Shown here piece by piece: positions 29,636-33,776 of a stretch of DNA of 41,322 nucleotides (positions are counted from its first letter, which is position 1; the number at the start of each line of letters is the position of its first letter). This stretch comes from Bacillota bacterium (GTDB lineage Bacteria; Bacillota_I; Bacilli_A; RF39; UBA660). Both the position numbers and the translations under genes were made by a program. The stretch lies in assembly GCA_003149915.1 (NCBI GenBank), contig QAMK01000005.1:1-41322 (forward strand), given 5' to 3'. The notes beneath the pieces were generated by a model. It did no database searches. It worked only from the letters and a program-made list of their open reading frames with translations, and was not told where the DNA came from.

Positions 29636-30016
29636 TTATTTTTCCTCTAAAAGATGATCCTTTATTATTGTAGAAGAGATTCCTCCTGTTCGTTCAATAT
29701 GAACAATCTTACAAGAATCCTTTAAATAATCAAAGTAATGCGTCGTTGTAACCATCACATCAATTTGTAAATCTTCTAACATTTGAGGAGTAATTTCACA
29801 ATCCCGCAAAATGACCTCATCTACCACTTTGAAAGAGGAAATCATCTTCATTCGAATCTCTTCATTAAAATACGGATTCTTTCCCTTTTCTTTGGCAAGT
29901 CTGTCCGAAGTGACATAGACAATTAAATAATCTCCATATTTTTTAGCACGTTCCAAATAACGAACATGACCGTAGTGCACAATATCAAACGTACCATGAG
30001 CAAGAACTTTCTTCAT
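29636..30016 (-). CDS. TagD-like cytidylyltransferase family protein
   Basis: 127 residues of the small nucleotidyltransferase fold: MKKVLAHGTFDIVHYGHVRY (HxGH at 14-17), then YVTSDRLAKEKGKNP, and RTGGISSTIIKD (R109 to D120) as the RTxGISTT motif. The pattern is that of glycerol-3-phosphate cytidylyltransferase (TagD) and related enzymes that make CDP-activated precursors for wall teichoic acid or lipids. No other teichoic-acid genes are nearby, so the substrate is open. ATG at 30016 follows AGGAAG; the in-frame GTG nine bases earlier overlaps it. Confidence 0.8.
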   Translation of the reverse strand: MKKVLAHGTFDIVHYGHVRYLERAKKYGDYLIVYVTSDRLAKEKGKNPYFNEEIRMKMISSFKVVDEVILRDCEITPQMLEDLQIDVMVTTTHYFDYLKDSCKIVHIERTGGISSTIIKDHLLEEK

Positions 30017-30085
30017 ACGATTCACTTCCTTATTTTTATTGTATCAAAAAAATATAGAGAGTCGCTAGAAATTACTTATCTACAA

Positions 30086-30114
30086 TTGTTATTTTATCTA
30101 TTTTTTGTTAAAAT
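30086..30114 (+). promoter_or_regulatory. promoter of the dCTP-deaminase-like pair
   Basis: TTGTTA (30086-30091), 17 bases, TAAAAT (30109-30114), 19 bases before ATG with TAGGAGGG between. Confidence 0.55.
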
Positions 30115-30133
30115 TTGAAATAGGAGGGTTTAT

Positions 30134-30685
30134 ATGTTAGATAAAGACGCAATCAAAACAGAAATCACAAGAAATAGCATATATGTAGACGGTGGAATCG
30201 ATCACATTAAAGATGACTACATAGAAGTTACTTTAGGAGACACATTGAAAGTGTACGATGCTCCCTATTTAAGTATCACAAATCCTACTTCAACAAAAGA
30301 ATTTAAAATGGATGAAGATGGATTTATTTTAAAACCAAACGAGTTATACATCGGTAGAACTCGAGAGTATACCAAAACTTATGGATTCGTTCCCTTACTA
30401 GCAGAAAGTGAAGAACTAGCAGCAGTCGGAATGGAAATCCACGTAACAGCAGGATTCGGGGACAACGGATTTGAAGGCACATGGACCTTAGAAATTGTCT
30501 GCACCAATCCAACCAAAGTATACCCTGGCATGCCAATTGGACGTGTCTATTACTACCCTTTAATTGGAGATGCTGATATCGAATATCGCGGAAAATACTT
30601 TGGACAAGTAGAGCCGACAGCTTCTAGATTATCACAAGAATACGAAGGACAGAAAGTGATGGTGAAAAAGAATGTTAACAAGTAA
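30134..30685 (+). CDS. dCTP deaminase-fold protein, single domain, keeps catalytic Glu
   Basis: 183 residues of the Dcd/dUTPase fold: EVTLGDTLKVYD, GFILKPNELYIGRTREYT, EIHVTAGFGDNGFEGTWTLEI, and YPGMPIGRVYYYPL, then YRGKYFGQVEPTASR. The catalytic Glu (E138 in E. coli Dcd) is E120. But the RSSxGR loop that provides Ser111 and Arg115 reads SEELAAVG, with E93 and A97 in those positions. On its own it should not deaminate dCTP by the known mechanism. It overlaps the next gene, a two-domain Dcd-fold protein, by 14 bases. Confidence 0.82.
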   Translation: MLDKDAIKTEITRNSIYVDGGIDHIKDDYIEVTLGDTLKVYDAPYLSITNPTSTKEFKMDEDGFILKPNELYIGRTREYTKTYGFVPLLAESEELAAVGMEIHVTAGFGDNGFEGTWTLEIVCTNPTKVYPGMPIGRVYYYPLIGDADIEYRGKYFGQVEPTASRLSQEYEGQKVMVKKNVNK

Positions 30686-31745
30686 TGAAATTAAAAAACA
30701 AATCGATAATGGCACCATCCAAATTGAAAATATGGCGGAAGATGCTTTAAAAAAGCCAAACAGTTGTGACCTTCGAATCGGAAATGTTCTATATGTATTC
30801 GATTATGAAATTGTCGACACCAAAAATTGTAAAAATTATTTACAAGAAGTATTAAAAGATCAAATTAGTCATTTAAGAAGAGTCGTGATTCCAGAAACAG
30901 GATTACTATTAGAACCACATAAAGTATACTTAACCAAAACAGTGGAAAAAATAACGACGAACGGTTACGTTCCTGTCATGAATGGAAAAACGATGTTATC
31001 TTTACTAGGTGTCAGTGTCGAACTAACGAACGGATATAAAACGGATCACTTCGATGACCATTTACTATTAAGTATCATCGCATCCAAACCGACAATTATT
31101 TATCCAGATATCAAAATCGCCAACTTAGCATTTTTCCCTAGTTTAAAACCATCAAACGAAATCAGAAAAATAGACGATCAAAAATCTTGTGGATTATATC
31201 AATCCGGAATGCTAAGTGGAACAGAGATTCAAAAAAGAATGCAATGCGATAATCCGGATATTATCATTACACCACAAGATAACATTGTCATCAATCCAAA
31301 CTCTGTCAACCTAACCTTAAATGATACAATTGCCATTTATTCTGATCCAGTATTAGATATGAAAAAAGAAAATGCAACTCAAAAATTTCAGATTGGAGAA
31401 GATGGCATGTGGGTTTACCCGGATGAAATCTATTTAGGCAGAACCAACGAATGGACTGAAACGAATCGTGTCGTACCAATGATGAGTGGCCGTAGTTCTT
31501 TAGGTCGCAATGGCCTTCACGTTCACTGTTCTGCTGGGATGGGTTCCCTAGGGTATAAAGGATATTGGCATATGGGAATTAGACCAGTCAAACCGCTTAG
31601 ACTGATTAAAGATATGAAATGTTGTCAAATCTACTACTTAACCGCCGAAGGAGAACAAGATAAAAACTATCAAGGATATATGCAAAATATGTCAGGCGAA
31701 CAGTTAAGTAGTCCTTTATATAAATCATTAACCAAAAAGAGATAA
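30672..31745 (+). CDS. two-domain dCTP deaminase-fold protein
   Basis: 357 residues with two Dcd-like domains. N-domain (about 1-165): KPNSCDLRIGNVLYVFD, EPHKVYLTKTVEKIT, then NGKTMLSLLGVSVELTNG; all catalytic positions are lost (T107, L111, S134 for Ser111, Arg115, Glu138). C-domain (about 180-345): NSVNLTLNDTIAIYSDP, YPDEIYLGRTNEWTE, MSGRSSLGRNGLHVHCSAG keep the Ser and Arg (S275, R279), but YWHMGI has Gly302 where the catalytic Glu belongs. It complements the single-domain protein encoded upstream. The start lies inside that gene. Confidence 0.82.
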   Translation: MLTSNEIKKQIDNGTIQIENMAEDALKKPNSCDLRIGNVLYVFDYEIVDTKNCKNYLQEVLKDQISHLRRVVIPETGLLLEPHKVYLTKTVEKITTNGYVPVMNGKTMLSLLGVSVELTNGYKTDHFDDHLLLSIIASKPTIIYPDIKIANLAFFPSLKPSNEIRKIDDQKSCGLYQSGMLSGTEIQKRMQCDNPDIIITPQDNIVINPNSVNLTLNDTIAIYSDPVLDMKKENATQKFQIGEDGMWVYPDEIYLGRTNEWTETNRVVPMMSGRSSLGRNGLHVHCSAGMGSLGYKGYWHMGIRPVKPLRLIKDMKCCQIYYLTAEGEQDKNYQGYMQNMSGEQLSSPLYKSLTKKR

Positions 31746-31758
31746 TAATAGATAATAC

Positions 31759-31790
31759 GAAAGAAGCAAGGAATTTCCCCTGCTTCTTTC
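31759..31790 (+). terminator. hairpin after the dCTP-deaminase-like pair
   Basis: GAAAGAAGCA (31759-31768) and TGCTTCTTTC (31781-31790), perfect 10 bp with a 12-base loop. There is no long T-run after it, so it may be a weak terminator. Confidence 0.45.
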
Positions 31791-31807
31791 ATATGAGAAA
31801 AACAAAT

Positions 31808-32626: not shown

Positions 32627-33202
32627 TTATCTATTTTGCGCCTTCTTTTGTAACGACTCCAACATATCTTGAATGAGTAAGACGGTCTCGTTTTGACGTC
32701 TTCCCTTTTTATGAACCATCTCGTTCCATTCTTCTAGAACCGTATGAACATTAGATTCATTTACTTTATCATGAAAAATTTGAAGTGCCGTTTTTTTATA
32801 ATCCATAAGAGCTACTGCTCCTAATGCACGATAATAGGCAACTTCTGGAATATCGGACTTATAATAAAAATCAAGTGCCATCTCATCCGTTACTTTTCTA
32901 GGATTTTGAAGGATGATTTTATTAGAACGAAATACTCCATGTGGTGTAGCAGAATCTACTACATCGATTACTTCTGCATCAGGAGGAACGATAACATCAT
33001 ATAACGTATCACCACGGTGAAGCCAGCGGATAATTTTACTTTCCGTCGAAAAATTAAATCCACCAAAATCTTTTCCAGATTTTGCAGTAGGATCCCAATG
33101 AGATGCGACATTGACTTCCCCAATTTGATACCGAACAGATGAATCCGCTCCACTATTTTCATCAAACATTACTTTTAAATATTTTGTCACTGGAAACTTC
33201 AC
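32627..33202 (-). CDS. hypothetical protein, third gene of the MazEF operon
   Basis: 191 residues from GTG at 33202, whose GTGA overlaps the mazF stop. Conserved-looking core: VNVASHWDPTAKSGKDFGGF, then STESKIIRWLHRGDTLYDV, VIDVVDSATPHGVFRSNKI and NPRKVTDEMALDFYY. The family exists in Firmicutes, I believe, but I cannot name it. The many polar invariant-looking residues (H, W, R, D) suggest an enzyme or nucleotide-binding fold, with some resemblance to ADP-ribosyltransferase-type folds that I would not press. GTG at 33190 is an alternative start. Its place after mazEF suggests a modifier or cargo gene. Confidence 0.65.
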   Translation of the reverse strand: MKFPVTKYLKVMFDENSGADSSVRYQIGEVNVASHWDPTAKSGKDFGGFNFSTESKIIRWLHRGDTLYDVIVPPDAEVIDVVDSATPHGVFRSNKIILQNPRKVTDEMALDFYYKSDIPEVAYYRALGAVALMDYKKTALQIFHDKVNESNVHTVLEEWNEMVHKKGRRQNETVLLIQDMLESLQKKAQNR

Positions 33203-33540
33203 TCCTCTATACAAGAATTCAATAACATAATAACACTAAGTAAATCATTATCACTCAACTTTTCAACAAACTTTAAATTTCTCGCTTCATAATCGATGCT
33301 TCGAATATGTTCACATAGAACAGAGCCGGAAACTTTTTTGGTGTCTTCTAAAATATAATGTGTTGGATAAACTTTAAGATTAGAAGTAATTGGACAAACC
33401 ATCACCATCCCTGTTTGTTCATTAAAAACATTATTACTAATAACTACTCCTGGTCGATATCCAGCCTGTTCATGCCCTCTAATCGGATTAAAATCTAAAA
33501 GAACAATATCTCCTTGCATTGGACAATATTTTTTTACCAT
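33199..33540 (-). CDS. mazF: MazF/PemK-type endoribonuclease toxin
   Basis: 113 residues of the MazF fold: MQGDIVLLDFNPIRGHEQAGYRP at the start (with the G-x-E-Q-x-G-x-R-P loop), VVISNNVFNEQTGMVMVCPIT in the centre, and LCEHIRSIDYEARN near the end. The family cleaves mRNA at short sequences. It overlaps mazE upstream by 7 bases and the third gene downstream by 4. Confidence 0.92.
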   Translation of the reverse strand: MVKKYCPMQGDIVLLDFNPIRGHEQAGYRPGVVISNNVFNEQTGMVMVCPITSNLKVYPTHYILEDTKKVSGSVLCEHIRSIDYEARNLKFVEKLSDNDLLSVIMLLNSCIEE

Positions 33541-33776
33541 ATTTCCTTACCTACATTTCCATCCCAAGAAAATTCTTTCGCCAAATTTTCACCATGATAT
33601 TCTTGAAAACGTTCTTTCAAAGATATTTTTCTTTTCTTAGGAATACTCACAATTAACTTATCGCCATCTTGTTCAATGTTTACTATATCATTTGTCTTAA
33701 TATTTAAAGATTTTAAAATACTGCTTGGGATTCGGATTCCAGATGAATTCCCCCACTTTTGAACTTTTACTTCCAT
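33534..33776 (-). CDS. mazE: MazE/AbrB-type antitoxin
   Basis: 80 residues: an AbrB-like swapped-hairpin DNA-binding domain (VKVQKWGNSSGIRIPSSIL, then INTNDIV-type strand and DKLIVSIPKK), followed by a C-terminal tail (LKERFQEYHGENLAKEF, then W) that would wrap around MazF. First gene of the operon; TTGACA/TATACT promoter with palindromic boxes upstream. Confidence 0.9.
   Translation of the reverse strand: MEVKVQKWGNSSGIRIPSSILKSLNIKTNDIVNIEQDGDKLIVSIPKKRKISLKERFQEYHGENLAKEFSWDGNVGKEIW

Follow-up and report, generated by a model that had tools for sequence, protein, structure and literature searches.

Results

The window analysed here, a stretch of 41,322 nucleotides from a Bacillota bacterium (assembly GCA_003149915.1, contig QAMK01000005.1, positions 1 to 41,322 of the forward strand), contains, on the + strand, a pair of overlapping genes whose products are relatives of dCTP deaminase (Dcd), and it is the division of the Dcd active site between these products that concerns us. 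Gene 1 (30134..30685) encodes 183 amino acids (aa) and gene 2 (30672..31745) encodes 357 aa; they overlap by 14 bp, the start of gene 2 falling within the final codons of gene 1. The Pfam family DCD (PF22769, cut-off 27 bits) matches one stretch of gene 1 (2.5e-21, 76.8 bits) and two stretches of gene 2 (2e-48, 164.8 bits; best stretch 180-322), which bears out the claim of a first-pass annotation of this DNA that three Dcd-fold domains occur here in two coupled genes. Gene 2 also scores 120.5 against TIGR02274, the dCTP deaminase equivalog model, above the cut-off of 92.8. Its N-domain occupies 30672..31187 (+), with approximate limits taken from the residue map and from a marginal match to DCD_N (PF06559; 22.3 bits against a cut-off of 21.4), and its C-domain, which starts at M180, occupies 31209..31742 on the same strand.

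Complementary half-sites

Residue positions follow the numbering of E. coli Dcd, whose sequence (from NC_000913) was used for numbering only. At positions 110, 111, 112 and 115 gene 1 has S92, E93, E94 and A97, so that motif 2 is lost, and at positions 121, 124, 128, 136, 138, 171, 178 and 182 it has H103, A106, D110, T118, E120, Y151, K154 and Q158, so that the half-site of the catalytic glutamate is present; the codon for E120, the counterpart of Glu138, lies at 30491..30493 (+). The C-domain of gene 2 has R274, S275, S276 and R279 at the first set of positions (the codons for S275 to R279, corresponding to Ser111 to Arg115, lie at 31494..31508, +), an intact motif-2 half-site, and S292, G302, Y336 and M340 at 128, 138, 178 and 182, where the Glu138 side is lost (G302 codon at 31575..31577, +). 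Both half-sites are degenerate in the N-domain, with K106, T107, M108 and L111 at 110, 111, 112 and 115 and S134 at 138. R110, S112, D128 and K178 therefore partition between gene 1 and the C-domain just as S111, R115 and E138 do. Residues that the first-pass annotation had aligned by eye (E93, A97 and E120; T107, L111 and S134; S275, R279 and G302) are all correct on alignment to E. coli Dcd. A homotrimeric Dcd has R110, S111 and R115 together with E138 in each subunit, and no domain of the pair has both; to judge from these residues, an assembly of one plus two domains would contain one working site at most.

The same division is found throughout the family. Protein searches at an E-value of 0.001 gave 447 homologues of gene 1 and 126 of gene 2, and row counts below refer to the 120 matches listed for each, plus the query; counts by locus refer to 26 tabulated loci, these being the window and 25 of the 27 genome loci described in the next section (L018 and L034 are left out). 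At all 26 loci E138 is present and R115 absent in gene 1 and the reverse holds for the C-domain, and the complementary losses are thus kept in other genomes, a check that the first-pass annotation had itself proposed. Position 138 of gene 1 is Glu in 121 of 121 rows, and Y171, K178 and Q182 are present in 120 of 121, while R110 and S111 are found in 3/121 each, S112 in 2/121 and R115 in 1/121; the gene 1 rows with R110, S111 or R115 are seven distinct rows, none of which has two of these residues. In the C-domain R110, S111, S112 and R115 are intact in all 118 rows that have letters there, and position 138 is never Glu (Gly in 108, Ala in 6 and Ser in 3 of 117 rows with letters). The N-domain has Ser, Thr, Asn or Cys at 138 in 121/121 rows, and its position 110 is still basic (Lys in 16 loci, Arg in 10). 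Among 24 single-gene relatives (E. coli excluded), R115 occurs in 23, and position 138 is Glu in 21 and Gln in two, with a gap in one. This partition of residues is a family trait and not chance.

Not all positions take part in it. H121, A124 and Y171 do not partition, the C-domain having H121 in 24, A124 in 17 and Y171 in all of the 26 loci, and position 182 is little informative because it is Gln in only 9 of the 24 single-gene relatives. Exceptions in the 26 loci are K178 in one C-domain (L032) and S112 in three gene 1 rows. The diagnostic positions are 110, 111 and 115 on the one side and 128, 138 and 178 on the other.

Selection and distances were analysed for 23 of 28 loci (leaving out L018, L023, L025, L031 and L034). 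Purifying selection acts on each of the three domains, with ratios of non-synonymous to synonymous substitution (dN/dS) of 0.02-0.23 across eight pairs; between the window and L008 the values for the three domains are 0.09, 0.10 and 0.06, at synonymous sites near saturation. Pairwise distances among the loci in gene 1 correlate with those in gene 2 (r 0.84), and none of 2000 permutations gave a value as high.

Co-occurrence and fusion

A pattern-based scan of 84,980 species genomes with the gene 2 alignment returned 42 loci, 27 of them gene-2-like (L008-L034) and the remaining 15 single Dcd open reading frames (ORFs) or fragments. Gene 1 lies directly 5' of gene 2 (25 loci) or is fused to it (2) in 27 of 27 gene-2-like loci. 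The unfused genes overlap by 1-23 nt at 23 of 25 loci, by exactly 14 nt at 12 of these, and are separated by a 1-nt gap at the other two; at L034 ORF calling gave a gene 1 of 95 aa, yet the frame stays open over 184 codons. Natural in-frame fusions are represented by L018, L031 and the P0231 group.

The 27 carriers are metagenome assemblies, mostly titled uncultured Bacilli, with Tenericutes, Bacillales, Mycoplasma, Candidatus Onthousia and Candidatus Ventrenecus also among the titles; we infer, rather than read from these titles, that they are probably gut bacteria. Exactly three DCD matches occur in 25 of the 27 genomes; G009 has an additional Dcd pair and the weak extra match of G014 falls on its dUTPase. 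When 385 genomes were sampled from the order of G004, the one-plus-two arrangement was present in 13, each with an adjoining gene-1-like match, and tandem single-domain pairs were present in six. A sample from the family, queried with the gene 1 profile, gave matches in 7 of 145 genomes, comprising five one-plus-two units, a 1+1 pair in G108 and, in G140, a single gene that is complete; the frames of the G108 and G140 copies are open. The one-plus-two unit is accessory and was never seen split, and the statement that gene 1 does not occur without gene 2 rests on the seven family genomes only, the 27 loci having been found via gene 2.

Structure models and proposed assembly

Two natural fusions were modelled with AlphaFold2 as fused single chains, and in both models (predicted template modelling score, pTM, 0.87 and 0.83) the three domains are predicted to pack together. 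The alignments used for folding (A3 and A5) contained fusions and gene 2 rows only; a mixed alignment of gene 1 rows, gene 2 rows and fusions (A2) was discarded, its conserved columns having fallen on the C-domain, which we read as misplaced gene 1 rows. The dUTPase of Epstein-Barr virus, which has a single site, aligns structurally with the model over a span that begins in the gene 1 domain and ends in the C-domain.

Johansson et al. reportedly showed in 2005 that the site of E. coli Dcd is built from two subunits. PMC12524310 places the dUTPase site at the subunit cleft, where one subunit contributes motif III and the adjoining one motif II, and PMC4827122 describes dUTPases and Dcds as having three equivalent sites in intersubunit clefts, and Dcds as responding cooperatively to dTTP. 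We propose that one copy of protein 1, with its one domain, and one of protein 2, with its two, would form a pseudo-trimer that fills the three Dcd positions in the manner of the dUTPase superfamily. The working cleft would be lined by R274, S275, S276 and R279 of the C-domain, on the motif-2 side, and by D110, the catalytic glutamate E120 and tail residues such as K154 of protein 1. The other two clefts would be dead, one setting motif II of the N-domain against the Gly of the C-domain and the other setting motif II of gene 1 against the Ser of the N-domain, and the N-domain itself would merely fill its place in the structure. Translation of the two genes is probably coupled through the 14-bp overlap, which would yield the subunits in a 1:1 ratio. 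The substrate is most likely dCTP, and the product would be dUTP or, as in bifunctional relatives, dUMP; release of dUMP by the pair is possible because a PF00692 dUTPase was matched in only 17 of 27 carriers and the enzymes of solved structure that are nearest in sequence are bifunctional.

Comparison with known systems

Homotrimeric Dcds and bifunctional dCTP deaminase:dUTPases (E. coli, 1xs1; M. jannaschii, 1ogh and 3gf0; B. halodurans, 4xjc; M. tuberculosis, 2qxx) have identical subunits and three equal sites, whereas the window pair has no complete domain and only one site that could be completed. Gene 2 shares its two-domain arrangement with the alphaproteobacterial Dcd (Agrobacterium 2r9q; NF005734/PRK07559/PF06559), which is encoded by a single gene, a one-domain partner not having been searched for; the family of its N-domain was matched in 27 genomes of a sample of 76 drawn from the class to which a Rickettsiales bin belongs. 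Gene 2 is not in this family, scoring 16.2 against NF005734, far under the cut-off of 283. In the 2r9q-type sequences (L087-L092) motif 2 (KSSTGR) is found only in the N-domain, which retains a Glu, and FDPG, VLEV and the tail are found in the C-domain, so that motif 2 is placed in reverse of its position in gene 2.

As proposed for the pair, the monomeric dUTPases of herpesviruses (Epstein-Barr virus 2bsy, pseudorabies virus 8zwq) have one site between two dUTPase-fold domains, with motif III before motif II in the chain. They are, however, dUTPases of one chain and two domains, with the motif order III, I, II, IV, V, and the window has two genes and three domains; we take the likeness to be convergent. 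In the dUTPase of Drosophila virilis, as PMC12524310 describes it, three dUTPase-fold domains in one chain form the trimer as a pseudo-heterotrimer. Unlike those of the window pair, its domains are nearly identical and all three sites work.

Tandem Dcd pairs of 'type III' (Streptomyces, Nocardiopsis, Nonomuraea, Rhizobium and some Bacilli) resemble the window pair in being adjacent paralogues with divergent site residues. Apart from the 1+1 pairs described below, tandem pairs were seen in actinobacteria and Rhizobium (on plasmids) and in Bacilli (L004, L005, L006, L007, L065, L066, L067 and L080-L083). Several of the actinobacterial pairs belong to operon-like clusters that also encode glycosyltransferases, methyltransferases, a cytidine deaminase and a UTP-glucose-1-phosphate uridylyltransferase and that resemble pathways to nucleotide or nucleoside products. 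In the literature that we searched on Dcd trimers, heteromers, paralogues and complementary loss, we found no description of a split or two-gene Dcd, and a conserved two-gene, one-plus-two enzyme with no complete domain appears to be new.

Origin of the pair

Four tandem 1+1 pairs have the same complementary loss (L064:6012-7075, L078:54-1124, L079:1860-2914 and L084:1-957). Their gene A has the motif GR[LF]S.AA, in which S111 has become Leu or Phe and R115 Ala with R110 and S112 retained, together with WTLEI; their gene B has GRSSIGR, and Glu138 replaced by Gly or Ala. L078, L079 and L084 (the last with gene A truncated by the contig end) are in genomes sampled from G004's order or family, and L064 comes from G009, which also has the one-plus-two form. 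Any A2B or AB2 trimer of such a pair would have one site.

Trees were built from 17 of the 26 loci (L061 being dropped from this tree) or, for tests of clades, from 11. The A genes fall into a single clade with gene 1, with a support of 95.9, or 92.7 when 15 active-site columns are removed. For the motif-2 donors, the C-domain and the B genes, a single clade has a p-value in the approximately unbiased test (p-AU) of 0.586, or 0.268 without the same 15 columns, and their common origin is not rejected by these sequences. The placement of the N-domain is unsure (branch length 1.58). The simplest story would be one duplication followed by complementary loss, giving an A+B enzyme, after which a third, non-catalytic domain joined B and fusion followed. 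One order of Bacilli may even keep the graded series, from a complete single gene (L086), whose product is presumably a homotrimer, through A+B (L078, L079, L084, L064) and A+(N-B) (25 loci and the window) to fusion (L031, L018 and the P0231 group), a tentative reading to which we would give slightly less than even weight.

Unequal Dcd partners probably arose more than once, since the Streptomyces pair L004 and the 'type III' pairs form a separate, wider set. In L004, which groups with the 'type III' pairs, Glu138 has become Met in one gene and motif 2 is lost in the other; in 9 of 9 tabulated 'type III' pairs one partner has E138 without D128, and the other retains D128 and K178 but has Gln138. 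The 'type III' pairs group apart in the tree with a support of 99.

A phage origin was considered and rejected: matches in the phage collection were all below 60% identity, none of 22 records covered 80% of gene 2, and all 14 viral loci had a single Dcd ORF in the stretch covered and no pair.

Genome context

Upstream of gene 1, on the + strand, a sequence like a ribosome-binding site (AGGAGGG) was read directly at 30122..30128, and a motif scan gave a promoter-like TTGTTA-17 nt-TAAAAT at 30086..30114 that we grade as weak, because such matches are about as frequent as expected by chance (11 in the region; shuffles, mean 8.1 and standard deviation 2.8). An inverted repeat of 18 pairs (31755-31794), terminator-like on the - strand, lies between gene 2 and a convergent helix-turn-helix gene. 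No conserved operon partner was accepted: only a TagD-like cytidylyltransferase gene recurs at more than five loci (9 of 28 including the window, where it lies at 29636-30025 on the - strand). It is divergent from gene 1, and we take its recurrence as shared ancestry of the neighbourhood. Further along the window Pfam identifies a MazE/MazF-like gene pair (33199-33776, -), and directly after the MazF-like gene there is an ORF of 195 aa (32627-33214) with no convincing match in Pfam or NCBIfam.

Of 130 neighbouring proteins, 20 were scanned with Pfam and 15 matched. Seven are core genes (a penicillin-binding protein, FtsA, DNA polymerase III alpha, UvrA, acetate kinase, a release factor PCRF domain and ThyX) and eight are of general kinds (GNAT, MFS, ASCH, HAD, HD, cytidylyltransferase, flavin reductase and Band 7). 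The ThyX-family protein (419 aa, L032:5727-6986) ends 14 nt 5' of gene 1 on the same strand, and ThyA or ThyX was matched in 20 of 27 carriers, three of the ThyA matches being partial. A laboratory strain of E. coli deleted for dcd grows poorly unless thymidine is supplied (PMC10733785). Several genomes (G009, G010, G015-G018 and G027) have a tandem-duplicated ThyX, PF02511 matching twice in one frame of about 476-481 codons.

Discussion

The conserved complementary losses, the pairing in 27 of 27 loci, the natural fusions and the two AlphaFold2 models all support the proposal of the first-pass annotation that one plus two domains make a pseudo-trimer with a single composite site. We consider it likely that the pair is an obligately heteromeric, pseudo-trimeric and asymmetric dCTP deaminase of this kind, whose two proteins would probably be active only in combination.

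Several observations weigh against this reading or narrow it. Gene 1 scores 61.9 against TIGR02274, under the cut-off of 92.8. The folding alignments held only seven fused rows, two pairs of which are nearly the same gene, and the gene 1 domain is thinly sampled in the models because of this; the proximity of E120 and R279 would follow from a structural alignment that gives end residues alone, as would the handedness with which the domains are ordered. The rooting of the tree is unsure. The distribution of the unit is patchy (13/385 genomes in the order, 5/145 in the family), and the group can therefore do without it. With regard to novelty, the alphaproteobacterial two-domain enzyme already divides its motifs in part between its domains (six sequences), and specialised Dcd halves as such are therefore not new. 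A role in the supply of thymidylate (dTTP) is only a first guess, since ThyA is no commoner in carriers (10/27, three of them partial) than in genomes sampled from the order (60/141), and 25 of the 27 carriers also have a gene of the zinc-deaminase family (PF00383), which could include dCMP deaminase; seven of the 27 lack a match to ThyA or ThyX, and thymidine kinase was matched in 13. All of these genomes are metagenome bins, and incomplete ones among them make such absences weak.

The first-pass annotation had also allowed for a nucleotide sensor without activity, in which the pseudo-trimer would bind dCTP or dTTP at its one intact cleft and signal without turnover. With two of three clefts dead and one domain a pseudo-domain such a change of use would be understandable, and, as reported for the staphylococcal phage Dut, proteins of the dUTPase superfamily can be regulators. 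According to its title, however, PDB entry 1xs4 is the E138A mutant of E. coli Dcd with dCTP bound; binding alone should not need this residue, and its invariance in gene 1 argues for catalysis and weakens the sensor. D128 and K178 are also retained and no regulator gene recurs next to the pair, and we regard the sensor as unlikely. It is very unlikely that the proteins form separate oligomers with no shared site, protein 1 perhaps regulating protein 2 or both acting on other ligands: 25 of 27 loci are unfused and the two-domain Dcd of 2r9q stands alone in its structure, but a homotrimer of gene 1 would have no motif 2 and an oligomer of gene 2 would have no Glu138 at all, and the fusions, the pTM of the fused chains and the co-occurrence speak for a joint assembly.

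Two further alternatives concern the task and not the architecture. The same pseudo-trimer might act on another pyrimidine nucleotide, such as a modified dCTP, and the patchy distribution would suit a specialised task of this sort; since positions 110, 111, 112, 115, 128, 138 and 178 are all retained in one half or the other, we think this improbable. Antiphage defence through depletion of dCTP, at which the first-pass annotation had hinted, finds some encouragement in that same patchiness and in the MazEF-like pair nearby. Antiphage dCTP deaminases, however, are known with the zinc-deaminase fold and are not known to have the dUTPase fold. PADLOC 2.0.0 (2023 library), applied to the two genes and not to their neighbours, gave a match at chance level (0.045) to an unrelated model for gene 1 and none for gene 2, and no recognised defence family is found among the 20 of 130 neighbours scanned; the idea is unsupported and scarcely credible.

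If the pair is an asymmetric, single-site enzyme, as we think, then the threefold symmetry of Dcd has seemingly been broken across two genes with one site left, and bacteria would have in it a two-gene equivalent of the herpesviral dUTPase with its one site. As a trimer that is asymmetric by nature, it would also allow cooperativity among sites to be tested by its absence. For annotation there is a warning, in that homologues of either gene are publicly named 'dCTP deaminase', though neither alone should suffice. The 1+1, one-plus-two and fused forms would be living intermediates for how paralogues become obligate partners, and, should the graded series hold, they would provide a natural stepwise record of the paralogues of a ring enzyme losing complementary halves and becoming mutually dependent, and of a dCTP deaminase trading trimer-wide cooperativity towards dTTP for a single site.
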